Source of the DNA: a virus
Length of the DNA: 35,542 bases
Reading direction: 5' to 3' (one strand)
Virus record (IMG/VR): IMGVR_UViG_3300010334_002550
Span: 1-35,542 of that record
The position numbers were made by a program, and so were the translations under genes. This document shows positions 15,939-33,580 of the stretch, piece by piece. Positions within the stretch are counted from its first letter, which is position 1, and every line of letters begins with the position of its first letter. The notes below the pieces were generated by a model that saw only the letters and a list, made by a program, of their open reading frames with translations, ran no database searches and was not told the DNA's origin.

Positions 15939-15975
15939 AAAGACCTCCCCAGAAATGGGGAGGTCTTTCGTTTTG
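15939..15975 (+). terminator. Intrinsic terminator after gp23
   Basis: AAAGACCTCCCC (15939-15950) and GGGGAGGTCTTT (15957-15968) form a perfect 12-bp stem with a 6-base loop (AGAAAT), followed by CGTTTT. It lies 25 bases after the gp23 stop and is the strongest hairpin in the window, so it should end the head-gene transcript. Confidence 0.9.
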
Positions 15976-15988: not shown

Positions 15989-16513
15989 ATGAGCTGTACT
16001 TCAAATATAAATCCCCTGTACAACAGTTATTTTACTTTGTTCTTTGGAAGAGGAACAAATCAATTTGAATTAAATTGCCAGAAAGCAAATTTACCTGGTT
16101 GCACAGTACCCGATGTAAATCAGCCAACAATCTTTGGTACAACAATCCCGGTGCCAACATTACAATTCAACTATGAAACTTTGAATGTTGAATTTATTGT
16201 AGATTCAAATTTAGAAAACTGGAAAAGCATATACTCATGGATGAGAAATATGGCAAATATTGATACTGATACTGAATATAATCTGGATTACCAAGATTGG
16301 CATCATCAAGCGACATTAAACATTTATGATCCTACTACACAGTGCCCATCAAACAAAATTTTATTCCATTATATTCTTCCAATGAAACTTAGTGGAATTC
16401 AATTCCAATCAGACAGCGCAGATGCTATATTGCAAAAAGCAACTTGCCAATTTAAATATTCATATTATACATTCTGCCCCGATGCTCCAAATGATCTGAA
16501 AAACACTTATTAA
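15989..16513 (+). CDS. Tail-tube-fold protein, possibly the gp3-type tail completion protein
   Basis: Encodes 174 residues. The pattern FGRGTNQFELNCQKANLPGC, then V-P-T-L-Q-F-N-Y-E-T-L-N-V-E-F-I-V-D, N-W-K-S-I-Y-S-W-M-R-N-M and alternating C-terminal strands resembles the tail-tube fold (gp19/gp54 type), although identity to the two gp19 copies is low. Aquatic T4-like phages carry gene 3 (tail-terminator, about 176 residues in T4) at exactly this place, between gp23 and uvsW. Length and place therefore suggest gp3, but a minor tube protein is possible. Its last four bases overlap the convergent gene's stop (TTAA), and no terminator lies between them. There is no Shine-Dalgarno before the ATG. 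Confidence 0.6.
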   Translation: MSCTSNINPLYNSYFTLFFGRGTNQFELNCQKANLPGCTVPDVNQPTIFGTTIPVPTLQFNYETLNVEFIVDSNLENWKSIYSWMRNMANIDTDTEYNLDYQDWHHQATLNIYDPTTQCPSNKILFHYILPMKLSGIQFQSDSADAILQKATCQFKYSYYTFCPDAPNDLKNTY

Positions 16514-17187
16514 AGATAATCTTGAGGGTTATCAGACCATCCTTCTGCTGAATTTGGATTAGCATCAGGATTAAAAGGCATTTCATTAGTTTCTGGTTTC
16601 ATTCTGGAGCGTTTCTTGCGTTTTGGTGGCTTGGGAGCCTCTTCAGGTTCAAGATCGCTTATAGAGGATTCTGACAAAAGATTTTGAATATTTTCTTCAT
16701 CTTCTTCATCCAGAATTTCATTTATTGCTGCTTCTCCCTCGAATGAATCAATAAGATCGTTAACAAAATTTACAAAATCTTCATTATTGAATAATTCATT
16801 TAACATCTGCAATCCTGCTTCTGGACCAACTACTTCTTCTGGTGAATTTGGTTGTCTTAATGATTCTGGATTTGTTTTCATTGTATAGAAGAATGTTTCA
16901 TACATTTTTTCCAATTCTTTTATTGGATGACCTATATAAAGAACGGCATTTCGATTTAATGTAATTTCTTCATTGTCTATATTGATAGCATAATTCATCA
17001 ATTTAATGTATTCGACAAATACACTATTTTCATCTTTGGTGTATGCTGTCTCAACTTTGGCAGGAAGAAGCATTGTTATTTTGTCTGAAGTAACATCACG
17101 AACTATTCCTAACAGTTCTTCGCCATTCATAAGTTTAACAACTCGTATCATCCCTTTGAAAGGATTCTCGGGTACTAAGTCAGACAT
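16510..17187 (-). CDS. Hypothetical acidic protein with Sm-like N-terminal region
   Basis: Encodes 225 residues, leftward. The first ~90 residues have the strand pattern of a small barrel of the Sm/LSm kind: R-V-V-K-L-M-N-G-E-E-L-L-G-I-V, K-I-T-M-L-L-P-A-K-V-E, then L-N-R-N-A-V-L-Y-I. The central part (residues ~110-180) is acidic and helical (D-E-E-D-E-E-N-I). A basic patch PPKRKKRSRMK lies near the C-terminus, which ends in an Asn/Pro-rich tail. I cannot name it; a nucleic-acid or protein-binding adaptor is possible. It follows uvsW by 15 bases with a good GGAGGG Shine-Dalgarno, so it belongs to the uvsY-uvsW unit. Its stop overlaps that of the convergent tail gene. Confidence 0.65.
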   Translation of the reverse strand: MSDLVPENPFKGMIRVVKLMNGEELLGIVRDVTSDKITMLLPAKVETAYTKDENSVFVEYIKLMNYAINIDNEEITLNRNAVLYIGHPIKELEKMYETFFYTMKTNPESLRQPNSPEEVVGPEAGLQMLNELFNNEDFVNFVNDLIDSFEGEAAINEILDEEDEENIQNLLSESSISDLEPEEAPKPPKRKKRSRMKPETNEMPFNPDANPNSAEGWSDNPQDYL

Positions 17188-17202: not shown

Positions 17203-18711
17203 TTATTTATCTTTAGTGGGTTGCTCAAAAGGCATGCTGACTATTTTATAGTCAAACTTTTCTTTTTTGTATATTTTTAATCGTTCTTCAAAGTGTCTAT
17301 ACACATGATTCTTATATGACTTGTAGCAAAGATCATCTACAATGTCAAAAACTTTCAGTGTTTTCTTTTTTGAAGATACACGAAGTCCCCGACCAATACT
17401 TTGAAGAAGACGAATTATAGATTTAGTAGGAGAAGCAAATATAATATTATCGATGTTAACAATGTTAATCCCAGTGCTAGTGGTACCAAAACTCGCCACA
17501 AGAATTGCATTGCTTTCTTTGTCCACAACCTTGCGTATTCGTTCTCTTGTATCAGCCTCTGTTTTTCCAGAGATAAAATATACCGGTCTATTGCCTCTTG
17601 ATGCCTGTATGACATCGTGGAGTGGCTTGCCATGGATCTCAACGTAGTTGAAGAGGATGAGCGTATTTCCTTTTGTTGAGATGGCGAGGTTTTTGATGAA
17701 TTCGTTTCTTTTTTCATTCGCAACGATCCATTTCAATTCATCAGGGTATCTTTGTTTATTTAGTGATTGCTTTTCTTCTTCTGAGTATTTCAACAGTATG
17801 CAATCAATACCTAGGGTTGCAAGCAACCCTTTATTCATTAGGTTTTTTGTTTGTATGAACTGAACTGCCGGCCCAAGAATGCCTTCAATGCTCAAACGAT
17901 GTGCTTGTGCTTGATCCAACGTTCCTGTTGTACCGATTCTGAACCATGCTTTAGTCATCTTTTGGCCAATCAGATTGATTGATTCGGCTTTTGCTTGGTG
18001 GCATTCATCAAAGATAACTGCATCAAACTGATCAAACCATATTCTCGAAAGTTTATAAACTGATTGCCAAGTAGAAACTATTATTTGTTTACTTGTATCT
18101 TTATCTGCCCCGGCACTTATTTTGTGAATATATTTTTTGCATGACCACGATGTATCTGATTTCGAGTAATCAAAAAAATCAGAGTCCATCTGATTTACTA
18201 AGCCAACCGTGGGAACCAATATCAATATTTTTCTGTCTGATTTTAACACGGATTGGAGAAAGCGGAGCAAGACGTATATTATCAAACTTTTTCCAGAGCC
18301 TGTCGGAGATATGATTACACACCTTTGATTGTTTATAGCGTGTACGATTGCCTGAGATTGGTGAGGATGCATATCCACGGCCTGCTTCTTGACCGAGACC
18401 TTTAAAGTTTTGTAGTATTCCTGAAGTTGTTCCGGGGTTATACATAACTTTTTCTCACTTTCTTTTATGGATATACTGTACTTGCGGTCATCTGCAAATT
18501 TTTGAAGATATGTTTTCAATCCACGTGGTAGGGTGGATGATAGAATATCAAACAAACGAATTTTACCGTCCCAAATACGCCGTTTGAACATAGGCATATA
18601 CTGGGCACCGGGTACCATGAACGAGAAGTAATCTCGTAATTCTTGCTTGATTCCTTTTTCTGCTTTGATGTAGTAACGAACTTCATCTACAGATTCAACG
18701 TCTATATCCAC
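17203..18711 (-). CDS. uvsW: DNA helicase UvsW-like (branch migration, late recombination)
   Basis: Encodes 502 residues, the length of T4 UvsW (503). The N-terminal domain aligns with T4 (MDIDVESVDEVRYYI...F-K-R-R-I-W-D-G-K-I-R-L). The helicase motifs are Walker A SPTGSGKS (135-142), DECH (235-238), TGT (262-264) and motif VI QSIGRGLR (437-444). UvsW unwinds R-loops and branched DNA and helps move replication from origin-dependent to recombination-dependent mode. The start is GTG at 18711, fitting the T4 N-terminus, and it lies within an inverted repeat that also holds a CTAAATA box. It follows uvsY by 15 bases. Confidence 0.93.
   Translation of the reverse strand: MDIDVESVDEVRYYIKAEKGIKQELRDYFSFMVPGAQYMPMFKRRIWDGKIRLFDILSSTLPRGLKTYLQKFADDRKYSISIKESEKKLCITPEQLQEYYKTLKVSVKKQAVDMHPHQSQAIVHAINNQRCVIISPTGSGKSLIIYVLLRFLQSVLKSDRKILILVPTVGLVNQMDSDFFDYSKSDTSWSCKKYIHKISAGADKDTSKQIIVSTWQSVYKLSRIWFDQFDAVIFDECHQAKAESINLIGQKMTKAWFRIGTTGTLDQAQAHRLSIEGILGPAVQFIQTKNLMNKGLLATLGIDCILLKYSEEEKQSLNKQRYPDELKWIVANEKRNEFIKNLAISTKGNTLILFNYVEIHGKPLHDVIQASRGNRPVYFISGKTEADTRERIRKVVDKESNAILVASFGTTSTGINIVNIDNIIFASPTKSIIRLLQSIGRGLRVSSKKKTLKVFDIVDDLCYKSYKNHVYRHFEERLKIYKKEKFDYKIVSMPFEQPTKDK
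17204..17210 (-). promoter_or_regulatory. Leftward ATAAATA across the uvsW stop codon
   Basis: On the minus strand ATAAATA spans the uvsW TAA, 16 bases before the ATG at 17187, with GGAGGG in between. It could give the Sm-like gene its own late transcript. Being partly coding, it may be coincidental. Confidence 0.3.
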
Positions 18712-18726
18712 CTAATATTTAGGTGG
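18708..18726 (-). promoter_or_regulatory. Inverted repeat over the uvsY-uvsW junction and uvsW start codon
   Basis: CCACCTAATATTTAGGTGG is an 8-bp perfect inverted repeat with a 3-base centre that fills the whole 15-base intergenic gap and includes the GTG start of uvsW. In uvsY read-through mRNA it would form a hairpin hiding the GTG. The minus strand reads CTAAATA at 18722-18716, a late-promoter match ending four bases before the GTG; a transcript from it would omit the left arm and free the start. Both readings could be true together. Confidence 0.55.
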
Positions 18727-19164
18727 TTAGACAATACCCTGACTCATTTTGAACCAGTCAATAGCAGACTTGATGATAAAATTTCTGTTATTCAAAGCCT
18801 TGATAAATTCTTCTACCATTTTAAGTTTGGTCTCGTTCAAAAGAATTTTAGATTTAAGTTCGATGATCTTTGGATCAGCCTCTATGAACTTCTCTACATC
18901 GGTTTTAAGCAAAGTATAATCAGAAGCCTCTTCACCCCACGCCTCCAATTCTTCTTGGCTGGCTTTGCCTGTATAGATTTTCCACATACGAAGTTTCATG
19001 ATAGCCAAATCATTTTGTTGCTTACCAAGCATCAATTTGATATCAGCAAGGATGTTAAGATACTTACCATGCAGTTGAGGGGTTTTGGTAGCCTCTTTGC
19101 CCAGTTCAGTATCATCTACTTGAGAATCTTTTGTAATGTGGTTTTTTAAATCTTCTAGATTCAT
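18727..19164 (-). CDS. uvsY: Recombination mediator UvsY-like
   Basis: Encodes 145 residues (T4 UvsY is 137). The N-terminus MNLEDLKNHITKDSQVDDTEL corresponds to T4 MRLEDLQEELKKDVFIDSTKL, and the remainder is a charged all-helical protein as in the family. UvsY forms heptamers that load the UvsX recombinase on gp32-coated single-stranded DNA. Being adjacent to uvsW is the T4 arrangement. The start ATG at 19164 lies 8 bases after a TTGACT-16-TATAAT promoter. No recognisable Shine-Dalgarno is seen in that gap. Confidence 0.9.
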   Translation of the reverse strand: MNLEDLKNHITKDSQVDDTELGKEATKTPQLHGKYLNILADIKLMLGKQQNDLAIMKLRMWKIYTGKASQEELEAWGEEASDYTLLKTDVEKFIEADPKIIELKSKILLNETKLKMVEEFIKALNNRNFIIKSAIDWFKMSQGIV

Positions 19165-19172: not shown

Positions 19173-19200
19173 ATTATAGAATACTATGAAAAAAAGTCAA
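19173..19200 (-). promoter_or_regulatory. Sigma70-type promoter for uvsY
   Basis: On the minus strand TTGACT (19200-19195), 16 bases, then TATAAT (19178-19173). The predicted RNA start would lie within a base or two of the uvsY ATG at 19164. The -35 box is one arm of the inverted repeat at 19196-19214. Confidence 0.7.
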
Positions 19201-19214
19201 CTAAATAAGTTGAC
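19196..19214. promoter_or_regulatory. Inverted repeat formed by back-to-back -35 boxes, with CTAAATA in the centre
   Basis: GTCAACTAAATAAGTTGAC is a 7-bp perfect inverted repeat with centre AAATA. Each arm is TTGAC reading outward, so the symmetry results from two divergent promoters (uvsY left, sugar array right) sharing the site. CTAAATA at 19201-19207 on the plus strand is a late-promoter match. The palindrome could also be an operator for a dimeric regulator. Confidence 0.6.
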
Positions 19215-19237
19215 AACTTTATTTTTATGAATATATT
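19210..19237 (+). promoter_or_regulatory. Sigma70-type promoter for the sugar array
   Basis: TTGACA (19210-19215), 16 bases, TATATT (19232-19237). The RNA would start near 19244, where a GAGG Shine-Dalgarno (19244-19247) and the ATG at 19252 follow, giving a very short leader. Confidence 0.6.
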
Positions 19238-19251
19238 TATTACGAGGTCTT

Positions 19252-19902
19252 ATGATTATTGATTTAAGAGAAATACCGGTTGTTTGGATTAATTTAGATA
19301 AAGATACCGAAAATGCTAAAAAAATGGTAGATCAATTTGAACGTTATGGTTTTAAAAATCATATTCGTTTTTCTGGATTGACACCAGATAAGATAGATCC
19401 TCCTATAGAAAAAAATTGGTATGGTTTTGGTTGTGGTATGTCTCATGTAAAAATTTTAGAAACATACAAAGATATTCCACTTTTAATTCTAGAAGATGAT
19501 GCTAAAATAACAGAAGATTTTGATCCGATATTAGAAGTCTCAGAAGAAATAGATGGTGTATATGTGGGAACATCTTCCGGCAATCCTTATTATATGACTA
19601 AAAGATATAATAAGGATTTTTTCCGTATTGGTAATATTTTAAGCACACACGCTGTTCTTTATTTAAAAGATCAATTTAAACAAAATGTAGCAAATGTTAC
19701 CAAATTGTTTGTTTATCATTATAAACAACCAGTAGATATTGGTGTTGCTAGCATTCTTCAACATCATAAAGTTTTGGCTCCCAATAAACCTTTCTTTGTT
19801 CAAGCAGATGACAGAGAAAGCAATAATAAATGGGAATCAATTACTGCTAGACCGTTGATAGATAAAAATAGTATATTTCCAGACGAGGTTATATCTATAT
19901 GA
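19252..19902 (+). CDS. Glycosyltransferase, GT25-like
   Basis: Encodes 216 residues, the first gene of the sugar array. GT25 features are seen: an N-terminal V-V-W-I-N-L-D-K-D segment for nucleotide binding, F-G-C-G-M-S-H-V-K-I-L (residues 59-69; the family pattern is G-x-x-G-C-x-x-S-H) and L-L-I-L-E-D-D-A (77-84), the acidic motif that binds metal and sugar-nucleotide. GT25 enzymes add galactose or related sugars to lipooligosaccharide or proteins. Donor and acceptor cannot be deduced. It has a GAGG ribosome site and its own upstream promoter, and overlaps the next gene by four bases. No transmembrane segment is visible. Confidence 0.75.
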   Translation: MIIDLREIPVVWINLDKDTENAKKMVDQFERYGFKNHIRFSGLTPDKIDPPIEKNWYGFGCGMSHVKILETYKDIPLLILEDDAKITEDFDPILEVSEEIDGVYVGTSSGNPYYMTKRYNKDFFRIGNILSTHAVLYLKDQFKQNVANVTKLFVYHYKQPVDIGVASILQHHKVLAPNKPFFVQADDRESNNKWESITARPLIDKNSIFPDEVISI

Positions 19903-20837
19903 TTACAGTAAAATGTCCTGTTAGAATTTCTTTAATTGGTGGATCTAGTGATCTTGATTCCTATATTCAAAAACATAAAAAAGGTTCTGTAATATCTTTT
20001 ACGCCAAAAATTTATACTTATGTTTCTATATATAAAGATTTAATAGGTAAAAACACATTAGAACAAAAATATATTGTAAATTATTCAGTAAGAGAAGAAG
20101 TTTCTTCTATTTCTGAAATAAAAAATTCATTAGTCAAAATATTTTTTGAAAAAGAAAACGTGACTCCTTGCTCAATTCATCTTACCAGTGATGTGTTTTC
20201 ACATGGATCTGGATTGGCTACATCTTCGTCTTATGCATGTGCAATATCAAAAGCAATATCTGAATTTAAAAATGATCCTATTTCAGATATTGAATGTGGA
20301 GTTAGATCGCATTATTTGGAAAAAATAGCAAATCCATTATTAGGCCAACAAGATGTATTCGGTTGTTGTATCGGTGGTTTTAAAAAGATTGAATTTACAC
20401 AATCAGGATTACCAAAATATACTTTTTTGCCAACAAAGTTTTTTGATTATTTTACTCCATATTTGATGTTTACTGGATTAACAAGAAATTCTACTGAAGT
20501 ATTGAAATCGGTTTCAACTCCAGATGATGATGTTTTTAATCCTTTGGTAGATGAATCTGAAAAATATATTTTAAATGGTTCGTATGAAAAATTTTTATCC
20601 ATTTTATCACGAGGATGGGAAGAAAAGAAAAAATCATCTAAAGATGTTTTAAAAGATCAATTAATAAAAGATATGGATGAATATTTAAAAAATTATCCAA
20701 ACTGTATATCTCACAAGTTATGCGGAGCAGGTAATGGTGGATTCTTTTTATGTTTTTTCCCTAATGATAAATTACCCACAGATACTAGATTTTTTAAACT
20801 AACACTGAGTACAACAGGAGTTCAAAGAGTTATATGA
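19899..20837 (+). CDS. GHMP sugar kinase, HddA-like (heptose-7-phosphate kinase family)
   Basis: Encodes 312 residues. GHMP motifs: N-terminal P-V-R-I-S-L-I-G-G-S-S-D (7-18), the phosphate loop H-G-S-G-L-A-T-S-S-S (102-111), and the C-terminal C-G-A-G-N-G-G-F-F-L (about 275-284). The N-terminal R-I-S-x-x-G-G-x-x-D form is the one of D-glycero-D-manno-heptose 7-phosphate 1-kinase (HddA) and of related fucokinase-type enzymes. The next gene encodes a GmhA-like isomerase that would supply its heptose-7-phosphate substrate, which favours HddA. The usual partner HddC is not recognised nearby. ATGA overlaps join it to both neighbours. Confidence 0.8.
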   Translation: MITVKCPVRISLIGGSSDLDSYIQKHKKGSVISFTPKIYTYVSIYKDLIGKNTLEQKYIVNYSVREEVSSISEIKNSLVKIFFEKENVTPCSIHLTSDVFSHGSGLATSSSYACAISKAISEFKNDPISDIECGVRSHYLEKIANPLLGQQDVFGCCIGGFKKIEFTQSGLPKYTFLPTKFFDYFTPYLMFTGLTRNSTEVLKSVSTPDDDVFNPLVDESEKYILNGSYEKFLSILSRGWEEKKKSSKDVLKDQLIKDMDEYLKNYPNCISHKLCGAGNGGFFLCFFPNDKLPTDTRFFKLTLSTTGVQRVI

Positions 20838-21343
20838 ATAATTTTATATCACAAATAAACGATGCTTTGCATAATTTAAATTCAGATAATTTAGATTATT
20901 TAAAAAAAATTGTATTAAGAAATAATTCAGAAATTATAATTTTAGGAAACGGCGGAAGTAATGCTATTTCTGCTCATATTGCCGAAGATTATACAAAAGC
21001 ATTAAAGAAAAAAGGAATTGCTTTTACAGATGGCGCCAGATTGACGTGCTATGCAAATGATTATGGATATGAGAATGCATTTTCTCAATATCTTTCAGAA
21101 TTTTCAACAACAAATAGCTTGGTTATTTTAATAAGTTCATCTGGCAATTCTAAAAATATTTTAAATTGTGCTTTATATTGTAAAGATAATGATATAGATT
21201 ATATTATTTTGTTTGGTTTTAGCCCAAATAACCAACTAAGAACAGTTTATAAAGATAAAGCCCTTATAGATTTTTGGGTAGATTCTACGGATTATGGTGT
21301 TGTTGAATGTGTTCATGAAATTATTTTACACTCGGTGATCTAA
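20834..21343 (+). CDS. gmhA: Sedoheptulose-7-phosphate isomerase, GmhA-like (SIS domain)
   Basis: Encodes 169 residues (E. coli GmhA is 192). Motifs are G-N-G-G-S-N-A-I-S-A-H-I-A-E-D (38-52; H48 and E51 match the zinc ligands of the family), T-C-Y-A-N-D-Y-G-Y-E-N (71-81), the SIS phosphate loop S-S-S-G-N-S-K-N-I (101-109) and a C-terminal E-C-V-H-E-I-I-L-H in which Glu stands where E. coli has zinc-ligand Gln. The reaction is sedoheptulose 7-phosphate to D-glycero-D-manno-heptose 7-phosphate, the first committed step to nucleotide-activated heptose. The gene is four bases into hddA's end and one base shared with the next gene. Confidence 0.85.
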   Translation: MNNFISQINDALHNLNSDNLDYLKKIVLRNNSEIIILGNGGSNAISAHIAEDYTKALKKKGIAFTDGARLTCYANDYGYENAFSQYLSEFSTTNSLVILISSSGNSKNILNCALYCKDNDIDYIILFGFSPNNQLRTVYKDKALIDFWVDSTDYGVVECVHEIILHSVI

Positions 21344-22059
21344 TGATTTATTGTTTTGATCTTGACGAAACTCTTTGTACAAAAGCCATAAATGGAGATT
21401 ATGCTACAGCAAAACCAATTAAAGAAGCCATTGAAAGAGTCAATAATCTTTGGTTATTGCGCCATAAAATATTAATATTTACTGGAAGAGGATCTAGTAG
21501 CGGAAAAGACTGGACTGAATTGACAAAACAACAACTAAAAGAATGGAATGTTTATCATGATGAACTTATAATGAATCGTAAACCAACTTATGATGTAATT
21601 ATTGACGATAAGGCTATAAATGCTCTTGAATGGAGAAACACTTTCTGCAAAACACGTGGAGTAGTTGCAGGGGCTTTTGATCTAATTCATCCCGGATATT
21701 GCAAACTATTTAAATTCTGCAAAGAACAATGTACACATCTTACTGTTTTATTGCATGATGATCCATCATGCGAACGAAATAAAATGAAACCAGTTCATTC
21801 GTTGGAAGAAAGAATGGAAATCTTAAAGTCTATTCGTTATGTTGATGATGTCATACCTTACACGGATGAACACAATCTTGCTATAAAATTGGAATTGGGT
21901 TGGTATGATGTTAGATTTTTGGGTGATGATTATAGAGATAAAAAATTTACAGCAGATTACCTCCCTGTAAAGGTTATATATACTGATAGATCACATGGTT
22001 ATTCGACCACAGATCTTAAAAAGAAAGTTGCATATTCTTATTCGGAGTTTATGAAATGA
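21343..22059 (+). CDS. HAD phosphatase fused to an HxGH-type nucleotidyltransferase
   Basis: Encodes 238 residues in two domains. Residues 1-100 are a small HAD phosphatase: D-L-D-E-T (6-10), F-T-G-R-G (46-50) and I-I-D-D-K-A (86-91), of the type found in capsule clusters (D-W-T-E-L-T-K-x-Q-L-K-E-W). Residues 105-238 form a cytidylyltransferase-like domain: G-A-F-D-L-I-H-P-G-Y (110-119), then R-S-H-G-Y-S-T-T-D-L-K-K-K (216-228). The second His of HxGH is Tyr here, a departure at an ATP/CTP-contact position. In the heptose route, phosphatase (GmhB) and nucleotidyl transfer (HldE C-domain) follow kinase action, so this one protein could do both. Nucleotide specificity cannot be told. Confidence 0.75.
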   Translation: MIYCFDLDETLCTKAINGDYATAKPIKEAIERVNNLWLLRHKILIFTGRGSSSGKDWTELTKQQLKEWNVYHDELIMNRKPTYDVIIDDKAINALEWRNTFCKTRGVVAGAFDLIHPGYCKLFKFCKEQCTHLTVLLHDDPSCERNKMKPVHSLEERMEILKSIRYVDDVIPYTDEHNLAIKLELGWYDVRFLGDDYRDKKFTADYLPVKVIYTDRSHGYSTTDLKKKVAYSYSEFMK

Positions 22060-22955
22060 AAATATTAGTTACAGGTGGTTGTGGTTTTATTGGTAGCCAT
22101 TTAGTAGATGCTTTAGTCGAATTACAGCACGATGTTATTGTTGTAGATGATTGTTCTGCAAATAATGAAAAATTTTATTTTAATAATAAAGCAACCTATC
22201 ACAAGGTTAGCATTTGTGATAGAGAAAAACTTATTGATATATCTAAGGGATGTGAGTTCTGTTTTCATTTGGCTGCAGAATCACGTTTACAAAATGCTAT
22301 TGAAAATCCTACCAGAGCAATTGATGTCAATGTTGGTGGAACATTAAATTTATTAGAAGTTTGTAAAACCAATAATATAGATGGTTTAGTTTTTTCATCA
22401 ACATCTTCTATATATGGATTGTCAAAATCATTTCCCATCACAGAAGAAAACAAAGAAAATTGTTTAAATCCATATGCATCTACAAAATACTGTGCGGAAC
22501 TTTTGTTAAAAAATTATTATGATATGTATGGTATCAAATCTTGTATTTTGAGATATTTTAATGTATTTGGAGAAAGAGCACCAACTAAAGGACAATATGC
22601 ACTGGTTACCGGAATTTTTTTAAGACAAAAATTAAATAAAGAATCTCTTACTGTTGTAGGTAATGGATTACAGGAGAGAGATTTTATATATGTAAAAGAT
22701 ATTATTAATGCAAATATAGAATGTATGCGTTCATGGAAAAGTAAATATTCTTTAACAAAAGCAGATGTATTTAATATAGGTTATGGAAAAACTGTTAAAG
22801 TAATAGATTTAGCTAAATCAATTGATAATAATATTATTTTTATTGAAGAGCGAAAAGGAGAGGCTGTAAATAATCTATCTTCATATGCTAAATTTTGTAA
22901 ACTAACTGGTTGGGCTCCAACAACACATATTTTAGATTGGATTAAAACACAATGA
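22056..22955 (+). CDS. NAD-dependent sugar epimerase/dehydratase (extended SDR)
   Basis: Encodes 299 residues. It has the Rossmann motif T-G-G-C-G-F-I-G (6-13), the catalytic S-S-T-S-S-I-Y-G segment (114-121) and Y140-x-x-x-K144 in N-P-Y-A-S-T-K, followed by L-R-Y-F-N-V-F-G. These are the features of UDP-glucose 4-epimerase-type enzymes that act on nucleotide sugars. The substrate might be the activated sugar made by the preceding genes, or a hexose. It overlaps its neighbours by ATGA at both ends. Confidence 0.82.
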   Translation: MKILVTGGCGFIGSHLVDALVELQHDVIVVDDCSANNEKFYFNNKATYHKVSICDREKLIDISKGCEFCFHLAAESRLQNAIENPTRAIDVNVGGTLNLLEVCKTNNIDGLVFSSTSSIYGLSKSFPITEENKENCLNPYASTKYCAELLLKNYYDMYGIKSCILRYFNVFGERAPTKGQYALVTGIFLRQKLNKESLTVVGNGLQERDFIYVKDIINANIECMRSWKSKYSLTKADVFNIGYGKTVKVIDLAKSIDNNIIFIEERKGEAVNNLSSYAKFCKLTGWAPTTHILDWIKTQ

Positions 22956-23743
22956 TAACATATCAATACATGGGCCGTAGAGGTAGACTTGGAAATCAGA
23001 TGTTTCAATATGCAACTCTATATTCAATAGCTAAATATAATAATTACGAATTTGGAATACCATTTTCTTGCAGAAATGCAGAAGATGATTATCGTGATTT
23101 ATGTTTACAAGATTGTTTTCCAAATTTAACAGCTAAAGATTCTACAGGATTTATTCCAGTATCACAGGTACAAGAACAGACTAATCTTTTTGTTCCAGAA
23201 TTTTTTAATATAAAAGATAATAAAGATCTATATGGATATTTTCAAACTGAAAAATATTTTAAACAATACAAAGATGATATTTTAAAAGAATTTACATTTA
23301 ACAATTCTATTAAAGAAAAATGTAAAAATTTAAAACAATCATTGAATAATGAAATTATTTCAATACATATGAGATTTGGTGATTATGAAAGATTTTCTGA
23401 TGTTTATCCCAGACCAACTCCGGAATATTATTTAACTGCACTTGATATACTACCAAAAGATGCAACCATCGTATTATTCAGTGATGATTTAAATAAAGCA
23501 TCTTTATTTTTTAAACAAGTTGGAAAAGATTTTAAAATGTTTGAAAATCTTAATAAATTTGAAGACATGTGTTTGATGACTTTATGTGACTACCATATAA
23601 TGGCAAACAGCTCTTTTAGTTGGTGGGGAGCATGGTTAAGCAATTCAAATAAAGTAATTGCTCCAAAAAATTGGTATGGATCTGCACCCGGAGCACCTAC
23701 TGTGTGGTATGATACATATTGTGATAATTGGGAAATAATTTAA
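22952..23743 (+). CDS. Glycosyltransferase family 11 (alpha-1,2-fucosyltransferase-like)
   Basis: Encodes 263 residues. GT11 motifs: G-R-L-G-N-Q-M-F-Q-Y-A (11-21), H-M-R-F-G-D-Y (139-145, corresponding to HxRRxDY for GDP-fucose binding, with Phe replacing the second Arg), F-S-D-D, and M-A-N-S-S-F-S-W-W-G-A-W-L (217-229). Such enzymes transfer fucose to galactose in O-antigens and host-mimicking glycans. A GDP-mannose 4,6-dehydratase that could lead to GDP-fucose is encoded at the right end of the window. The Arg change weakens the assignment of exact donor. Confidence 0.85.
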   Translation: MITYQYMGRRGRLGNQMFQYATLYSIAKYNNYEFGIPFSCRNAEDDYRDLCLQDCFPNLTAKDSTGFIPVSQVQEQTNLFVPEFFNIKDNKDLYGYFQTEKYFKQYKDDILKEFTFNNSIKEKCKNLKQSLNNEIISIHMRFGDYERFSDVYPRPTPEYYLTALDILPKDATIVLFSDDLNKASLFFKQVGKDFKMFENLNKFEDMCLMTLCDYHIMANSSFSWWGAWLSNSNKVIAPKNWYGSAPGAPTVWYDTYCDNWEII

Positions 23744-24540
23744 TGGTAAATATATTTTGCGACACTGATGATTGGTCTCCAACTTTAAAGGCAATTCTTG
23801 AAAATAATACACATTTCAATAATATGAGTATTCACATTTCAATAAATTGTGCATCGTATGATCCATTAAAAAAATATAATATTTTAATTTTACAAGAAAG
23901 CCCAGCCGTTCTGAAATATAGAAATGTTTTATCTTTTTTATCTGATGAAAACAATCGTAAAAAATATTACAAAATTTATTCATGTATACCAGAATTAACT
24001 GAAAAATATGATATAGAATATATGCATCCTTCAAATATATCATGGATTTTAAATCCAATTTTTTTACCAAAAAAAACAAAATTAGTTAGCATGATATCAT
24101 CTAATAATAAATTTTTAGATGGACATAAATTTAGACTTAACATATTAGAATCTGTTAAAAATTTTGTTGATGTATATGGAAGAGGATTTAATCCTATTGA
24201 AAAAAAAGATTTAGGTTTAGTGGATTATTACTATTCAATAGCAGTTGAAAATGATGATACCAATAATTATTTTTCAGAAAAAATACTTGATTGTTTTATG
24301 ACATGCACTTTACCAATTTATTGGGGTTCTGAACATGTTTACAACATATTTAATCCAAAAGGTATAATAAATTTAAAAAATATAAATTTTGATGAAATTA
24401 AAAATTTAACAAAAGATTATTATATTAATAATTTAGATGCTATAATAGAAAATTATTTTATAGCACAAAAAGAAAATCGGTACGTGAATCACGCAATTCA
24501 AATAATATTGACAAAATTATATAATGAAAAGTACAATTAA
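23743..24540 (+). CDS. Glycosyltransferase family 10 (alpha-1,3-fucosyltransferase-like)
   Basis: Encodes 265 residues from the ATG at 23743, which shares one base with the stop of the GT11 gene (TAATG); this start is preferred over 23728, which would extend into that gene. The GT10 donor motif is seen at residues 166-195: I-A-V-E-N-D-D-T-N-N-Y-F-S-E-K-I, then C-T-L-P-I-Y-W-G-S. This corresponds to the FxFEN...YxTEK...PIYWG pattern of alpha-1,3/1,4-fucosyltransferases. Pairing with a GT11 suggests di-fucosylated or branched structures. It is AT-rich with many Asn/Lys/Ile codons, like its neighbours. Confidence 0.82.
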   Translation: MVNIFCDTDDWSPTLKAILENNTHFNNMSIHISINCASYDPLKKYNILILQESPAVLKYRNVLSFLSDENNRKKYYKIYSCIPELTEKYDIEYMHPSNISWILNPIFLPKKTKLVSMISSNNKFLDGHKFRLNILESVKNFVDVYGRGFNPIEKKDLGLVDYYYSIAVENDDTNNYFSEKILDCFMTCTLPIYWGSEHVYNIFNPKGIINLKNINFDEIKNLTKDYYINNLDAIIENYFIAQKENRYVNHAIQIILTKLYNEKYN

Positions 24541-25510
24541 TAAAAATATCGTATTGGTTGGACCAGGATTATTACAAATTCCCATTTCAGGAAAAAATGG
24601 ATGGGGTGGAATAGAAAACACTTTAACACATATAATCAAGGAATTTAAAATAAGAAATCAAGAATTTACTTTAGTAAATGATTCTATAAATTATAATAAT
24701 ATAGTCCGAGATATAACAAAAAATAATGATTGCATAGTACATGTACACTATGATGAATATGCGGAAGATTTATACAAAAATAAAAATTATTCTTTAGTAT
24801 CAACTTCACATTCTCCATATCATCCATATACAAGTATGTGGTTAGAACATACAAAAAATCATTTTAATCGTTTATTCACAAATATAGATGCATATTTTGG
24901 ACAAGCTCATATATCAAATATGCACGCAAAACAAATAAATCCAAACTTATTTTTAGGTTTATGTAGATGTGGAATATCTGAAAATGAATTTATAAATTTT
25001 AGAAAAAATAAAGGAAATAAAAAATCTTTGGTAATTGGAAAAATAGAAGGTAGAAAAAATCAAGCATTATTACAACAAACATTTTCTAATGATTTATATA
25101 TTGATTTTGTAGGACAAAATATTGATCCAAATTTTAAAGAAATGGATGTAGGAAAAACAAAATATCTTGGAAGTTGGTCTAGAGAGCAAGTTTATTCAAA
25201 AATGACAGAATATAGTACAATAATATTATTATCATCATTTGAAGGAGATGTTGGTGTTATAAAAGAAGCAATTGCTTCAGGTTGTAGTGTGGTTGTATCA
25301 AAGAATGCTTCTTTAAATTTGGATATTGATTTGCCATTCATTAAAGTATATGATACAATACAAGATAAAAATATTTTTATAAACGATATAAATATAATGA
25401 ACGAAGAGAATGAAAAATACAGACCTTTTATTTTTGAATATTTTAAAAATAAATTTGATGTATCCGTGACTGTAGATGAATATATTAATTCTTTGAATAA
25501 TTTATGTTAA
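24524..25510 (+). CDS. Glycosyltransferase, GT4-like (GT-B fold)
   Basis: Encodes 328 residues. A GT-B layout is visible: a Gly-rich loop G-K-N-G-W-G-G-I-E (23-31) near the start, the central hinge, V-I-G-K-I-E-G-R-K-N-Q, and the EX7E motif E-G-D-V-G-V-I-K-E-A-I-A-S-G (about 242-255) that binds the donor. This is a retaining family such as GT4. Sugar specificity is unknown. It overlaps the preceding gene by 17 bases and the next by 7. No signal peptide or membrane helix is seen, so it is probably soluble or peripheral. Confidence 0.75.
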   Translation: MKSTINKNIVLVGPGLLQIPISGKNGWGGIENTLTHIIKEFKIRNQEFTLVNDSINYNNIVRDITKNNDCIVHVHYDEYAEDLYKNKNYSLVSTSHSPYHPYTSMWLEHTKNHFNRLFTNIDAYFGQAHISNMHAKQINPNLFLGLCRCGISENEFINFRKNKGNKKSLVIGKIEGRKNQALLQQTFSNDLYIDFVGQNIDPNFKEMDVGKTKYLGSWSREQVYSKMTEYSTIILLSSFEGDVGVIKEAIASGCSVVVSKNASLNLDIDLPFIKVYDTIQDKNIFINDINIMNEENEKYRPFIFEYFKNKFDVSVTVDEYINSLNNLC

Positions 25511-26268
25511 AAACTACTTTAATAATACCTGTTAAAATTGATAGTGTAGAAAGAAAAAATAATGTTGAAACAACATTAAAATATATTTTTAAAAATACTG
25601 ATTGTAAAATTATTATAAAAGAGAGTGATTTAGAACAAAAACTTTTTGTAGATTCTAATAATCGTATTAGATATTTTTTTGAAAAAAATAATACTGGTAT
25701 ATTTCACAGAACCAAATTACTGAATGAGATGTTACACTTAGTAGACACTCCCGTAGTTGCAAACTATGATGCGGATATCATTCTTTATCCAGAGACATAT
25801 AGACAAGCTGAACAGTTAATTTTGGAACAAAATTATGATTTAATTTATCCATATAGGTTTGAACAAATGGATCAGATTAAGATATTTCCAAATGCATACG
25901 ATACTATAAATTTTTATAATTCATTAGATTTGAATGATATTCATATAACACATTTAAATAAATATTTTTGTCGTTATGGTCATGTTCAATTTTTTAAAAC
26001 CGATTCATATAGATCTGGATTTATGGAAAATGAAAACTATATTGATTGGGGTCCAGAAGATGAGGAAAGAGGTCTTCGTTTTGTTAAATTGGGGTACAAA
26101 GTATCATGGATTAAAGGATTAGTCTTTCATCAAGAACATCCTCCAAGTATAAGAAAAGAACAATTCAATAAAAATGAAGAATTGCATTCAAAAATTAAAC
26201 AAATGAATAAACAAGATTTAGTTGAATATTATAGCAAACAAGATTACCTAAAAAAATATAAAAAATGA
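25504..26268 (+). CDS. GT-A glycosyltransferase, galactosyltransferase C-terminal (GT7/GT2-like)
   Basis: Encodes 254 residues. The start is T-T-L-I-I-P-V-K as in GT2 enzymes. D-A-D (89-91) within V-V-A-N-Y-D-A-D-I is the metal-binding DXD. The segment S-G-F-M-E-N-E-N-Y-I-D-W-G-P-E-D-E-E (171-188) followed by R-F-V-K-L-G-Y-K-V and F-H-Q-E-H (208-212) is the Glyco_transf_7C pattern, where W-G-x-E-D supplies the catalytic acid. Galactose or N-acetyl-hexosamine transfer is common in the family, but the donor cannot be fixed. The C-terminal ~35 residues are Lys-rich. It overlaps the next gene by ATGA. Confidence 0.78.
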   Translation: MLKTTLIIPVKIDSVERKNNVETTLKYIFKNTDCKIIIKESDLEQKLFVDSNNRIRYFFEKNNTGIFHRTKLLNEMLHLVDTPVVANYDADIILYPETYRQAEQLILEQNYDLIYPYRFEQMDQIKIFPNAYDTINFYNSLDLNDIHITHLNKYFCRYGHVQFFKTDSYRSGFMENENYIDWGPEDEERGLRFVKLGYKVSWIKGLVFHQEHPPSIRKEQFNKNEELHSKIKQMNKQDLVEYYSKQDYLKKYKK

Positions 26269-26888
26269 AAAAATTACTATTTTACACTTTTCATAGACAT
26301 TTGGATGAAATATATTATTCATCTTTATTTTTTAATAAAAGCGAGTTTTTAAAAAATAATTTTGAAATTATATTACATTGTAATAATACAAATACATCTT
26401 TAGATGATATTAAAAAAAGAAGTTTATTTGATACAAAAGTAGAAATTATATTAACTACAAAAAACGAAGGTGGATACGATTATGGTATTCCAGAAGCACA
26501 ATCTGACATGTATAACATGTGGAAAAATTATGAATATGTTTTATTTTCTCAACTAGATTGTTATATTGTAAATGATGAATACTTTAAAAATGTTTTTGAT
26601 ACCGATTTTGATGCCTTTGTATCACCTATAAATCATATTGGAAGAAACTGTTATATTGGTGATTTTTTTATGATAAAACCAAAAAGTAATATATTTGCTT
26701 ATTGGAAACAGGATAGGCAAAATAGAAATCCACATGTACATGAACATTATCTTGCTGATTGTATTGATTCAGAATATAATAAAATTAAAACATGTGAACG
26801 AATAGGACACCAACAAAGACAGATAGATAGTTACGGACTTTGGCACGAGCACAATAATCATAATGTAAGGAGCGTATTAGAACTATGA
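26265..26888 (+). CDS. Putative GT-A-like glycosyltransferase, family not recognised
   Basis: Encodes 207 residues. A segment N-E-G-G-Y-D-Y-G-I-P (68-76) followed after a helix by Y-V-L-F-S-Q-L-D-C-Y-I-V (91-102) resembles the donor-binding half of GT-A enzymes, with LDC-Y at the position of the DXD motif. Downstream are F-F-M-I-K-P-K-S-N, common in polysaccharide transferases, and a His-rich C-terminus (H-Q-Q-R-Q-I-D, W-H-E-H-N-N-H). I cannot name the family. Context, flanked by GT7C and a methyltransferase and coupled to both by ATGA overlaps, strongly suggests work on the same glycan. Confidence 0.55.
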   Translation: MKKLLFYTFHRHLDEIYYSSLFFNKSEFLKNNFEIILHCNNTNTSLDDIKKRSLFDTKVEIILTTKNEGGYDYGIPEAQSDMYNMWKNYEYVLFSQLDCYIVNDEYFKNVFDTDFDAFVSPINHIGRNCYIGDFFMIKPKSNIFAYWKQDRQNRNPHVHEHYLADCIDSEYNKIKTCERIGHQQRQIDSYGLWHEHNNHNVRSVLEL

Positions 26889-27496
26889 GCAATTTAGATC
26901 ATTTAGGTGGATTTTCTACACAAGAAAATATAGGAGATAATGCAACATATCATCCAATTTTATGGAAATATGTAATAGACAAATATAATATTAAAAGTGT
27001 ATTAGATGTTGGATGTGGTATGGGAATATCAACAAAGTTTTTTCATGATAATGAATGTAATGTTCAGGGAATTGAAGGACATCCTTTTTGTATAGAAAAT
27101 AGTAAAATGAAAGATTATATGCTTCATCATGATTATGCCCATGGCGAAAGCAATCTTTCCGATACATTTGATTTTTGTTGGTCATGTGAATTTGTTGAAC
27201 ATGTCGAAGAACAATATTCTAACAATTTTATTAAAGATTTTGCAAAAGCAAAAATTGTTATGATTACGCATGCAACTCCCGGACAAGGTGGTTGGCATCA
27301 TGTAAATTGTCAACCAGCATCATATTGGATAGAAAAATTAGCAAAACATGGTTTAATATATGATGAAAAGATGACAGAAGAAACTAGAAAAATTGCTGAG
27401 AGTGATTGGAAATTATATAGTCCTGGATATAAAAGCCACTATGTGGATAAAGGTTTAGTCTTTAAAAATAAACAACATGATGTATATATTCATTAA
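26885..27496 (+). CDS. SAM-dependent methyltransferase (class I)
   Basis: Encodes 203 residues. Motif I is V-L-D-V-G-C-G-M-G (39-47), followed by G-I-E-G-H-P as the acidic/ribose-binding strand and F-D-F-C-W-S-C-E-F-V-E-H-V (post-motif region), a form typical of methyltransferases in surface polysaccharide clusters. Downstream T-H-A-T-P-G-Q-G-G-W-H-H-V-N and P-A-S-Y-W-I are the pattern of small sugar O-methyltransferases. It would cap or modify a sugar hydroxyl. It joins the preceding gene by ATGA, and a three-base gap separates it from the next gene. Confidence 0.8.
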   Translation: MSNLDHLGGFSTQENIGDNATYHPILWKYVIDKYNIKSVLDVGCGMGISTKFFHDNECNVQGIEGHPFCIENSKMKDYMLHHDYAHGESNLSDTFDFCWSCEFVEHVEEQYSNNFIKDFAKAKIVMITHATPGQGGWHHVNCQPASYWIEKLAKHGLIYDEKMTEETRKIAESDWKLYSPGYKSHYVDKGLVFKNKQHDVYIH

Positions 27497-27499
27497 GAA

Positions 27500-28156
27500 A
27501 TGATAAAAAATATGAAAATTGGAATATCTATAGTTGGAATTTCCCATTTAGATGGAGAAAAAGCAAATTCTAGAGATAGAGTTGGAAGAATTGGAAGAGT
27601 AAGAAAATTTGATTGTTGTCCACCAAATGTCAATCAAAATTTAATTGAACCATTTAAAAAAGATCATGATGTTTCTATTTACTTGACAACATACCCCCAT
27701 GAATATCTGAATCAATTAATAGAAATGTACAATCCAACCAAATGCTCCACAAAAGATTTTGGTAATTCATTCATGCAACAAACCTATGCTGAGTCATTAA
27801 ATCAACTGGTGGATGAAGACTTAGATTTTATTATCAGTACAAGATTTGATATTTTATTTTCACAAGATATGTCAAAATTGTCTTATGATTTTAATAAAAT
27901 GAATGTTTTATTTAGAGAAAAAGATTGCAATCATTTAAATTATACTTGTGATAATTTTTATGCATTCCCTAAAAAATATTTAATTGATTTTGCAAACTCA
28001 ATAGGTGAACTATATCATGGCGGGGAAAGAAATGGAATGCATGGCACACTTCACCAGCTATCAAAAAAAATTAGTTATGATAATATCAAAATACTTGATG
28101 ATGTAGATCAACTAGGACACAACAACAATTACTATTACCTACCACACTCAGCATGA
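27500..28156 (+). CDS. Unknown protein in sugar array, possible glycosyltransferase
   Basis: Encodes 218 residues (or 214 if the ATG at 27512 is used). It contains D-F-I-I-S-T-R-F-D-I-L-F (about 113-124), reminiscent of the T-R-F-D form of the DXD site in some poorly characterised GT-A transferases, preceded by a helix E-S-L-N-Q-L-V-D-E-D-L. The N-terminus K-I-G-I-S-I-V-G-I-S is a plausible first beta-strand. The C-terminal half has F-Y-A-F-P-K-K-Y-L-I-D-F and a Gly/His-rich segment. No family name can be given; the context supports a role in glycan assembly. Confidence 0.5.
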   Translation: MIKNMKIGISIVGISHLDGEKANSRDRVGRIGRVRKFDCCPPNVNQNLIEPFKKDHDVSIYLTTYPHEYLNQLIEMYNPTKCSTKDFGNSFMQQTYAESLNQLVDEDLDFIISTRFDILFSQDMSKLSYDFNKMNVLFREKDCNHLNYTCDNFYAFPKKYLIDFANSIGELYHGGERNGMHGTLHQLSKKISYDNIKILDDVDQLGHNNNYYYLPHSA

Positions 28157-28779
28157 AAAAACTTGAAGCCATATTATTTGATTTGGATGGTGTTTTAGTA
28201 GATGCCTGCGATTGGCATTATAAAGCTTTAAATGCAGCTTTAGAAGATTGTGGCTACGATGCCATAACAAAAGAAGATCATTTAAAAAAATTTAATGGCT
28301 TGCCAACACGTGTAAAACTTAACATGTTAGATATAAATGAAAAACATGCATCAAGAATTAATAAATTAAAACAAAAATATACATTAAAAATTATAAAAAA
28401 CAATTCTAAAATAATGTTTGAAAAAATAGAATTGCACGAGTATTTGAAGTCGTGTGGATATAAAATAGGATGTGTTACGAATTCAATAAAAGAAACGGCA
28501 GTGGAGATGTTAAAAGCCACAGGACAGCTAGATTATATTGATATTCTTGTTACTAACGAAGATGTTTTGAACAACAAACCAAATCCAGAATGTTATAATT
28601 TTGCCATAAACAAATTAAATGTAAATCCCAAGAGCACTCTCTGTGTTGAAGATTCTGATATTGGATTGAGGGCAGCGTTTCTTTCAAGTGCATCTAACGT
28701 TTTACCAGTAAAAAATACCAATTACGTAAATCTTTCATATATAAAAACAATGATTGAAGATCTGGAGGCCAAGCTATGA
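28153..28779 (+). CDS. HAD hydrolase, beta-phosphoglucomutase/phosphatase type
   Basis: Encodes 208 residues. HAD motifs: D-L-D-G-V (10-14), T-N-S (109-111), K142 in N-K-P-N-P, and V-E-D-S-D-I-G (165-171). A helical cap lies between motifs I and II, as in subclass I beta-phosphoglucomutase-like enzymes. A sugar-phosphate phosphatase or mutase acting before the nucleotidyltransferase encoded by the next gene is likely. This is the second HAD in the array (the first is fused at 21343), so the two could serve different sugars. It overlaps both neighbours by ATGA. Confidence 0.85.
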   Translation: MKKLEAILFDLDGVLVDACDWHYKALNAALEDCGYDAITKEDHLKKFNGLPTRVKLNMLDINEKHASRINKLKQKYTLKIIKNNSKIMFEKIELHEYLKSCGYKIGCVTNSIKETAVEMLKATGQLDYIDILVTNEDVLNNKPNPECYNFAINKLNVNPKSTLCVEDSDIGLRAAFLSSASNVLPVKNTNYVNLSYIKTMIEDLEAKL

Positions 28780-29489
28780 AAATATTAATTCCTATGGCCG
28801 GAGAAGGCAGTAGATTTTCATCTGAGGGTTATACGTTTCCCAAACCACTTATTGATGTATTGGGTAAACCGATGATCCAACAAGTTGTTGAAAATTTAAA
28901 TTTTGATGCAGAATATATTTTTTTAGTAAGAAAAGAACATATTATAAAATACTCAGGTTTAAAAGAAACTTTAAATAAAATAACAAATGGAAAATACAAA
29001 ATAGTTGAAGTAGATCGTTTGACAGAAGGTGCGGCATGCACAGCGCTATTAGCCAAAGAATTCATAAATGACGATGACGATTTGTTGATAGCTAATTCGG
29101 ATCAAATTATAGAATATAGCAAAGATAATTTTTTATCTATTAAAAATCTTACAAACGTAGATGGTATAGTTTTCACATTCAATGCTCTACACCCAAAATG
29201 GTCATTTGTAAAAACAAATAAAAATGGATTTGTAACTGAAGTTGCAGAAAAAAATCCAATTTCTAATATTGCAACTTGTGGTATATATTGGTATCGTAAA
29301 GGTAAAGATTTTGTAGATTGTGCAGAAAAAATGATAAACAAAAACATAAGAGTAAATAATGAATTTTATATTGCTCCTGTATACAATGAATTTATTAAAA
29401 ATAAAAAATCTTTAATACCTTTTTTTGTGCATAAAATGCATGGAATTGGTACACCAGAAGATTTAAATATATATTTACAATCAATATGA
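28776..29489 (+). CDS. Sugar-1-phosphate nucleotidyltransferase (NTP_transferase family)
   Basis: Encodes 237 residues. The nucleotide-binding signature M-A-G-E-G-S-R-F (7-14), P-K-P-L-I-D-V-L-G-K-P-M-I (22-34), E-G-A-A-C-T-A-L (84-91) and the metal site A-N-S-D-Q (106-110) are all present. The enzyme would activate a sugar or polyol phosphate as an NDP derivative; the I-P-M-A-G-x-G-S-R-F form is common in capsule clusters but does not tell the base. It lies between the HAD gene and a phosphodiesterase-like gene, with 4-base overlaps. The HAD product could be its substrate. Confidence 0.85.
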   Translation: MKILIPMAGEGSRFSSEGYTFPKPLIDVLGKPMIQQVVENLNFDAEYIFLVRKEHIIKYSGLKETLNKITNGKYKIVEVDRLTEGAACTALLAKEFINDDDDLLIANSDQIIEYSKDNFLSIKNLTNVDGIVFTFNALHPKWSFVKTNKNGFVTEVAEKNPISNIATCGIYWYRKGKDFVDCAEKMINKNIRVNNEFYIAPVYNEFIKNKKSLIPFFVHKMHGIGTPEDLNIYLQSI

Positions 29490-29932
29490 AAATAATAGCA
29501 CACAGAGGAAATTTATATGGGCCAAATCCAGAATTTGAAAATCACCCCGACTATCTTGTTGCTTGTGTTAAAAATGGATTTGATATTGAAGTGGATGTGT
29601 GGCGAGTAAATAATAAATATTTTTTGGGACACGATATTCCTTTATACGAAACATCTGTAAATTTTTTAAATTCTTTGCCGGGTTGGTTTCATGCAAAAAA
29701 TATAGAAGCTATGGAACAATTGAAAGCAGATGGTCTTCATTATTTTTGGCACCAAAATGATTATTACACATTGACCAGCAAAGGAATTCCATGGTGTTAT
29801 CCAAAATACAAAAACAAATATGGCATATCTGTTGTTTTAGATAAAACAAATATAAATATAAATGAAATAAATTGTTTAGGTATTTGTACAGATTATGCTT
29901 TTTTTTATAAGAATGAAATAAATGGAAAGTAA
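29486..29932 (+). CDS. Glycerophosphodiester phosphodiesterase-like protein, short form
   Basis: Encodes 148 residues. GDPD signature residues are present: H-R-G (6-8) and P-E near residue 16, E-V-D-V (35-38) for metal binding and L-G-H-D (47-50) with the catalytic His. Typical GDPD proteins exceed 230 residues, so this is a shortened barrel. The rest (F-H-A-K-N-I-E-A-M, Y-F-W-H-Q-N-D-Y) follows the family up to about two-thirds of its usual course. It may act on a glycerol-phosphate or other phosphodiester substituent, or bind such a ligand without hydrolysis. The gene is in the NTase/HAD group and overlaps the next gene by 11 bases. Confidence 0.7.
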   Translation: MKIIAHRGNLYGPNPEFENHPDYLVACVKNGFDIEVDVWRVNNKYFLGHDIPLYETSVNFLNSLPGWFHAKNIEAMEQLKADGLHYFWHQNDYYTLTSKGIPWCYPKYKNKYGISVVLDKTNININEINCLGICTDYAFFYKNEINGK

Positions 29933-30872
29933 AAAAATATTAATAATTGGTGGTTGTGGCTATATTGGAAGTAAACTTTTTGTTTATTTAAACAGCAATC
30001 CTTTATATAAAGTAGATACTGTTGATTTAGAATGGTATGGAAATGTTGTTAATCCAAATAATTTTATAATTGATTTTAAAAATTTAACAAAAGAATTCAT
30101 AGAAAAATATGATATAGTAATATTATTGGCTGGCCATTCATCAACAGCAATGGCTATCAATAGTATTAAAAATTCTGCTATTAAAAATAATTTGGATAAT
30201 TTTACAAATTTAATATTAAAATTAAATTCAAAACAAAAATTTATTTACGCTAGTAGTTCAAGTGTTTATAATGGAATTAAAGATGATGAAGTTACAGAAG
30301 ATCATATTCTTTTAAGTCCAAAAAATGTTTATGATTTTACTAAAAAAAGTATAGATGAAGTGATGTCACTTCACCCAGACATAGAATTTTATGGGTTAAG
30401 ATTTGCTACAGTAAACGGATACTCAGACAATCTAAGAGAAGACATAATGTTCAACATGATGGTTAAGACTGCAGTTTTGGAAAATGAAATAAAATTGTTA
30501 AACCCTAAAATTAGACGACCTATTTTGTATCTTAATGATTTGATACAAGCTATTGAATTGATTATAGAAAATAAAACTAACCGGAAAGGGTATTATAATT
30601 TATCTTCATTTAATGGTACAGTAGAAGAATATGCAAATATTGTATCAGATTTGACTGGAGCAAAAATAAATGTAACAGATGAAACATATTTTTCAAAAAT
30701 TATGGGAGGAAAATTGGGAAATGCTCTTGATTTTTCCATAAATTCTGATAAATTTAAAAATGTTTTTAATTATAATTTTGTTGGTACACCAAAATTAATT
30801 ACTAAAGAAGTATCTGAAATTGTAGAAAAGGTTAAAAAATCCAAACGCTCGGATGGAAAAAATTATGAATAA
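29922..30872 (+). CDS. NAD-dependent epimerase/dehydratase, second SDR
   Basis: Encodes 316 residues. It carries I-G-G-C-G-Y-I-G (9-16), S-S-S-S-V-Y-N-G (111-118) and Y137-x-x-x-K141 (V-Y-D-F-T-K), the SDR active site. L-R-F-A-T-V-N-G, R-R-P-I-L-Y-L-N-D and the C-terminal sugar-binding part follow the UDP/dTDP-sugar 4-epimerase scheme. Substrate is not deducible. It precedes the C-methyltransferase and a 3,5-epimerase-like gene, a combination used for branched or deoxy-sugars. It starts inside the GDPD-like gene. Confidence 0.8.
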   Translation: MESKKILIIGGCGYIGSKLFVYLNSNPLYKVDTVDLEWYGNVVNPNNFIIDFKNLTKEFIEKYDIVILLAGHSSTAMAINSIKNSAIKNNLDNFTNLILKLNSKQKFIYASSSSVYNGIKDDEVTEDHILLSPKNVYDFTKKSIDEVMSLHPDIEFYGLRFATVNGYSDNLREDIMFNMMVKTAVLENEIKLLNPKIRRPILYLNDLIQAIELIIENKTNRKGYYNLSSFNGTVEEYANIVSDLTGAKINVTDETYFSKIMGGKLGNALDFSINSDKFKNVFNYNFVGTPKLITKEVSEIVEKVKKSKRSDGKNYE

Positions 30873-33552: not shown

Positions 33553-33580
33553 TTGCATATGTTAAAAATCTGGCTATAAT
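33553..33580 (+). promoter_or_regulatory. Sigma70-type promoter for gene 55
   Basis: TTGCAT (33553-33558), 16 bases, TATAAT (33575-33580). The gene-55 GTG starts six bases after the -10, so RNA would begin at about the start codon. It occupies the 37-base gap between two sugar-array genes and contains no ribosome site. Confidence 0.75.

Follow-up and report, generated by a model that had tools for sequence, protein, structure and literature searches.

The intergenic region between uvsY and the sugar array

In the window (the whole stretch of DNA that was analysed, 35.5 kb), the recombination gene uvsY, the helicase gene uvsW and a 'methylamine utilization'-like gene (mau) lie on the minus strand, and an array of sugar genes runs away from them on the plus strand towards gp55. 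The neighbor assignments of the first-pass annotation hold: UvsY is recognized by both Pfam and PHROG, and gp55 by PHROG 234, although Pfam gives no match for gp55 (33587-34159). Pfam also recognizes Gp23, a GHMP kinase and a SIS-domain protein in the window. uvsY starts at 19164 on the minus strand and the first sugar gene at 19252 on the plus strand, which leaves an intergenic gap of 87 bases; two early promoters plus a probable late promoter fit into 65 of these. The features are as follows.

16510-17187, minus strand: mau, third gene of the inverted block (phrog_471, 3.6e-07; phrog_527, 8.9e-09)
17203-18711, minus strand: uvsW helicase (Pfam UvsW_N and ResIII; PHROG)
18716-18723, minus strand: putative late box CCTAAATA just 5' of uvsW (nearly all relatives have TAAATATT where uvsY meets uvsW)
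18727-19164, minus strand: uvsY (Pfam PF11056, 1.1e-21; phrog_231, 4.4e-34)
19173-19200, minus strand: sigma70-type early promoter of uvsY, TTGACT-16-TATAAT (strict-pattern match and conservation)
19196-19214, no strand: palindrome GTCAACTAAATAAGTTGAC, made by the two -35 boxes (sequence; inner pairs variable in relatives)
19200-19207, plus strand: probable late box ACTAAATA, T4/Aeh1-type, toward the sugar array (TAAATA orientation 78/78; predicted start ~19213)
19210-19237, plus strand: sigma70-type early promoter of the sugar array, TTGACA-16-TATATT (strict-pattern match and conservation)
19244-19247, plus strand: GAGG, Shine-Dalgarno-like, 4 nt 5' of the sugar-array ATG (sequence; GAGG or AGG in most aligned relatives)
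19252-33549, plus strand: sugar/glycosyltransferase array, first gene GT25-like (Pfam, PHROG)
33553-33580, plus strand: separate sigma70-like promoter of gp55, TTGCAT-16-TATAAT (sequence; clade scores)
33587-34159, plus strand: gp55, late sigma factor (phrog_234, 4.7e-51)

The two early promoters stand back to back. That of uvsY has its -35 box (TTGACT) at 19200-19195 and its -10 box (TATAAT) at 19178-19173 on the minus strand; that of the sugar array has TTGACA at 19210-19215 and TATATT at 19232-19237 on the plus strand. Both arms thus have what defines a sigma70-type early promoter, i.e. TTGACA-like and TATAAT-like hexamers 15-19 bp apart that are conserved 5' of a gene. The pattern TTGACW-N15-19-TATAWT matches only twice in the window, both times at 19173-19237 (0.49 matches expected); two matches anywhere were reached in 8 of 100 shuffles. 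The best-scoring promoter-like sites within 15-25 kb are these same two and one at 24508. At the usual distance from the -10 box, leftward transcription is predicted to start at ~19166, 2 nt upstream of the uvsY ATG, making the mRNA near-leaderless, and rightward early transcription at ~19244, coinciding with the GAGG.

Conservation in relatives

Related loci were collected from IMG/VR with a UvsY query (54 loci) and a UvsY-alignment query (80 loci), and conservation was counted over all distinct uvsY upstream regions. The divergent pair, TTGACT-16-TATAAT toward uvsY and TTGACA-16-TATATT toward the sugar array, is present as first annotated, and both promoters are kept in 78 distinct relatives. 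These relatives, all with an intact site, have GTCAA...TTGAC with TAAATA in the sugar sense; the reverse orientation occurs in none. The presence of both -35 boxes and TAAATA, in one orientation, in 78 relatives rules out a chance origin, and the arrangement is kept in every close relative examined; the clade consists of uncultured T4-like phages. Twelve distinct uvsY upstream regions lack the site. Nine of them have no palindrome and come from loci in which UvsY shares 29-45% identity with that of the window clade; of the other three, L031 and L088 look like cut or chimeric contig ends and L243 is from a distant phage. The L243 phage (UvsY 42% identical) has GTCAAATTTTATTTGAC 5' of uvsY, with the promoter TTGACT-16-TATAAT and without TAAATA.

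Spacing is conserved too: of 51 loci, 50 have a rightward spacer of 16 and 43 a leftward spacer of 16, and the rightward value also holds in nearly all of the larger set. Across 70 distinct sites the TTGAC of the boxes carries ~2 bits per column and TAAATA 1.9-2.0, and the spacers mostly carry 0.1-1.3. The -10 box mostly lies 6-12 nt from the uvsY ATG, making a near-leaderless uvsY common in the clade; some relatives have a weaker uvsY -10 box (TAGAGT, TAAAGT). On the other side the promoter is mostly 35-40 nt 5' of the start codon of the first sugar gene. Behind this constant promoter the first island gene has at least three N-terminal types among the relatives (MIIDLREI..., MIPKI(I/L)HQ... 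and M.(R/K)L(L/I)IKFPTRNRP...). Here a promoter stays fixed while the glycan-gene island that it serves can be exchanged.

A probable late box between the -35 boxes

The centre of the site reads CTAAATA (19201-19207), and the 8-bp box to which this belongs shares base 19200 with the uvsY -35 box. CTAAATA is no commoner in the window than expected (10 copies against 10.07), so enrichment was rejected as evidence in itself and the meaning of the motif depends on position and conservation. These support its first-pass identification as a late-promoter core: the orientation is 78:0, and in an IMG/VR comparison scan (pattern GTCAA-N7-10-TTGACW-N16-TATAWT) TAAATA was found, among the matches listed, at only one of 102 comparable TTGAC palindromes away from uvsY. 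The 8-mer is ACTAAATA or AATAAATA, that is A[C/A]TAAATA, in 77 of the 78 sites and GATAAATA in one. In T4 the late box is TATAAATA, nine sites having A at -13, and in phage Aeh1 it has a/gC at -13/-12 (PMC2988020); both ACTAAATA and AATAAATA fall within the variants of the T4-type 8-bp TATA box given there. The phage also encodes gp55, as a T4-type late promoter demands.

Similar boxes are found in the window 5' of the sheath, scaffold, capsid, tail-tube and uvsW genes, and upstream of ORFs in the relatives (n = 318) TAAATA is in gene sense 108 times versus 42 times reversed. The bases 3' of the late box are AG, AC or TAT followed by TTGAC in relatives, a mixed composition; in the window this stretch reads AGTTGAC, with a lower AT content than typical late promoters have there. 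Covariation between the base that precedes TAAATA and the other late boxes of the same genome was considered and rejected, the -12 base (C/A) showing only a weak trend.

Could the centre instead be an AT-rich upstream element (UP-like or DNA-melting) that aids one or both of two sigma70 promoters, these being the only ones to act? AT-rich DNA upstream of the -35 box often stimulates sigma70 promoters, TAAATA is directly upstream of both -35 boxes, and the AAA adjoining the uvsY -35 box is conserved as well. Such an element, however, needs no exact, one-directional 6-mer, whereas the 78:0 orientation and the C/A at -12 match late boxes; moreover, other divergent palindromes have a different AT-rich sequence at their centres, for example GTTTTTTC or GAAAAAAC (among the matches listed). 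We consider this explanation unlikely, and hold with moderate confidence that the central TAAATA is a late promoter. Given the 78:0 orientation and the one occurrence in 102 similar palindromes elsewhere (among the matches listed), an early-plus-late promoter for the sugar array, with early and late boxes overlapping 5' of one gene, is well supported as a prediction. The first-pass idea of a later switch to gp55-driven transcription likewise gains support from a conserved late box that faces the sugar genes.

Two other late-type boxes have structured surroundings. At the uvsY/uvsW junction, TAAATATT often shares the TAA stop of uvsY, so a late uvsW mRNA may be near-leaderless. In the window CCTAAATA sits within a perfect hairpin, CCACCTAAATATTAGGTGG, adjoining the presumed GTG start of uvsW; a late box in an RNA hairpin as a general device like that of T4 e and soc was rejected since only some close relatives have the hairpin. 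Elsewhere, a strong terminator-like hairpin (13 bp plus a T-rich tail) follows the capsid gene at 15939-15968 (plus strand), with GATAAATA directly 3' of it, before the tail-tube gene.

The palindrome

The -35 boxes do form the arms of GTCAACTAAATAAGTTGAC at 19196-19214, as first described, but the view of this palindrome as a device in itself is not upheld. Counting arm pairs from the outside, 43 of the 78 sites stop at 5 bp, that is, at the two TTGAC boxes, and inner changes there are uncompensated. What is conserved is therefore the -35 boxes and not a hairpin; the palindrome is a by-product of the two boxes. The site might instead be the operator of a dimeric regulator, or a terminator hairpin, and resemble -35 boxes only secondarily; this would fit the perfect 7-bp arms, which only the window has, the 8-bp arms of 32 of the 78 relatives (all with one centre sequence), and a terminator scan that flags the palindrome on both strands. 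Neither early transcript would contain the hairpin, however, and both correctly spaced -10 boxes would be left unexplained; we rejected this reading, and think it very improbable. Slightly less probable still is that replication begins here as it does at ori(uvsY) of T4, the promoter supplying primer RNA. The uvsY promoter of T4 does carry an origin, and the window combines divergent transcription with a change in GC skew at ~19 kb, but the skew shifts along with the strand of the genes and nothing else indicates an origin.

A predicted two-way promoter before gp55 in cultured phages

The comparison scan also matched regions upstream of gp55, among the matches listed in L144, L199, L223, L165, L237 and L248 (a contig end). 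In these T4-like contigs uvsW, a mau-like gene and gp55 are on one strand, as is uvsY where the contig reaches it, and the GTCAA-TTGAC site is just 5' of gp55. The mau-gp55 gap was then examined in 15 cultured or reference phages, chosen independently of the promoter pattern. The cultured phages examined (cyanophages, pelagiphages and Stenotrophomonas phage DLP6) have the gene order uvsY-(..)-uvsW-mau-gp55 on one strand. A leftward promoter matching at 10-12 of 12 positions was found in all 15 gaps, and a rightward one with 10-12 of 12 in 14, DLP6 having 8; when each gap is shuffled, 0-4.7% of the versions reach its leftward score. In 13 of the 15 the -35 boxes overlap, cross or start at most 22 bp apart; the distance is 30 bp in Mosig and 63 bp in HTVC008M (both pelagiphages). 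The leftward arm runs into mau and uvsW in antisense. The TAAATA centre is absent from the cultured gp55 gaps; P-SSM2 has one copy, outside the -35 pair. Among 80 gp55 loci taken whatever their upstream neighbors, many have opposed promoters, at varying distances.

A literature search covering few subscription papers turned up no description of a two-way promoter before gp55, so this element of cultured marine phages is apparently undescribed so far. Rfam had no match for the mau-gp55 gap in the six loci searched. Many of these gaps share a similar stretch of ~20 nt like CTGACAGTGTTATTCTAC 3' of the mau stop, in which lie the leftward -10 box and the initial bases of the predicted antisense RNA (gaps compared: Syn9, P-SSM2, P-SSM4, S-RIM2, S-CAM8, S-H35, P-TIM68, ACG-2014d/j and DSL-LC02; L337-L340, L423-L430).

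Evolutionary history

Compared with the cultured phages, the window clade has uvsY-uvsW-mau inverted, the promoter between this block and the sugar island, and gp55 beyond the island. Here gp55 has its own, one-way promoter: of 66 distinct upstream regions in the clade, 34 score at least 10 of 12 rightward and 3 do so leftward. The spacer of this gp55 promoter is mostly 16 in the window clade, versus 17 in many other T4-like phages.

The simplest history would be that the three genes were inverted next to a two-way promoter already in place, and that the sugar island was then inserted before gp55. The formerly antisense arm would thereby have become the promoter of the uvsY block, and the late box would have been gained. 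Since the cultured gp55 gaps lack the TAAATA centre (the P-SSM2 copy aside), the case for such descent is one of position and layout and not of sequence that can be aligned.

Proposed working and relation to known systems

We think it probable, with room for doubt, that the site is a compact three-promoter unit, an early pair plus a gp55 late box, derived from the two-way promoter of gp55 by inversion and insertion. The host-sigma70 promoters would fire early, the left one into uvsY-uvsW-mau as a near-leaderless mRNA and the right one into the sugar array. Once gp55 is made, the late RNA polymerase would start at ~19213 and go on transcribing the sugar array, now with a longer leader; the uvsY promoter and the rightward -35 box would lie under its footprint. 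The sequences show the elements, their conservation and the gene orders; we infer activity, timing, occlusion and history. Two early promoters and one late box would compete within 65 bp.

With 9 bp between the -35 boxes and ~78 bp between the predicted early starts, crowding of two polymerases is likely, and mutual exclusion of the recombination and sugar operons is physically plausible. At E. coli bidirectional promoters, exclusive binding often leaves expression uncoupled unless one side is strongly activated (PMC12825309). Because the backward arm of the gp55-gap layout is antisense in cultured relatives, a toggle between recombination and sugar genes cannot be its general purpose.

Overlapping early and late promoters, and divergent promoters, are already known; their combination here is a new variation. 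Cyanomyoviruses are without MotA and Asi homologues, and a combination of early and late promoters is believed to take the place of the middle mode in RB49, with a like proposal for S-PM2 and for Syn9, although Q-PCR on a few genes of S-PM2 found no middle profile (PMC2984593). Like the overlapping promoters of these phages, the window has a host-sigma70 box and a gp55 late box 5' of one gene set, but its late box is between back-to-back early promoters and serves the sugar island, uvsY having an early promoter only. The site also resembles the prokaryotic bidirectional promoters described by the Grainger group (PMC12825309) in its predicted divergent sigma70 transcription from mutually excluding or crowding binding sites. 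Those promoters are pseudo-symmetrical with starts typically 10-23 bp apart, whereas the window has back-to-back -35 boxes and predicted starts ~78 bp apart, and so falls outside that class. A third close layout, with the same neighbor genes and opposed sigma70-type promoters whose -35 boxes are adjacent or overlapping, is the mau-gp55 gap of Kyanoviridae (Syn9, P-SSM2, P-SSM4, S-RIM2, HTVC008M, Mosig) and DLP6. That gap differs from the window in having gp55 rightward, an antisense leftward arm, -35 boxes that often overlap or cross, and no conserved late box.

A wider conjecture, which we put forward tentatively and which may well prove wrong, is that T4-like marine phages have an ancient two-way early promoter at the gp55 locus that makes gp55 mRNA and antisense RNA to mau-uvsW-uvsY, simultaneously or alternately; that inversion in the window clade turned the antisense arm into an operon's promoter; and that gp55, through the late box, can switch off the early pair and gain control of the sugar island. 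For the question of how T4-like phages without MotA time their middle genes, the site is a compact and conserved test case; its likely counterpart, the two-way promoter before gp55, is directly checkable in well-studied, culturable cyanophages such as Syn9 and P-SSM4.

A further divergent site recurs in an unrelated viral contig (L150), where GTCAA-AAAATG(A/T)CC-TTGACT-N16-TATATT is present at least three times within 1.6 kb, at 5974, 6488 and 7528 (plus strand).
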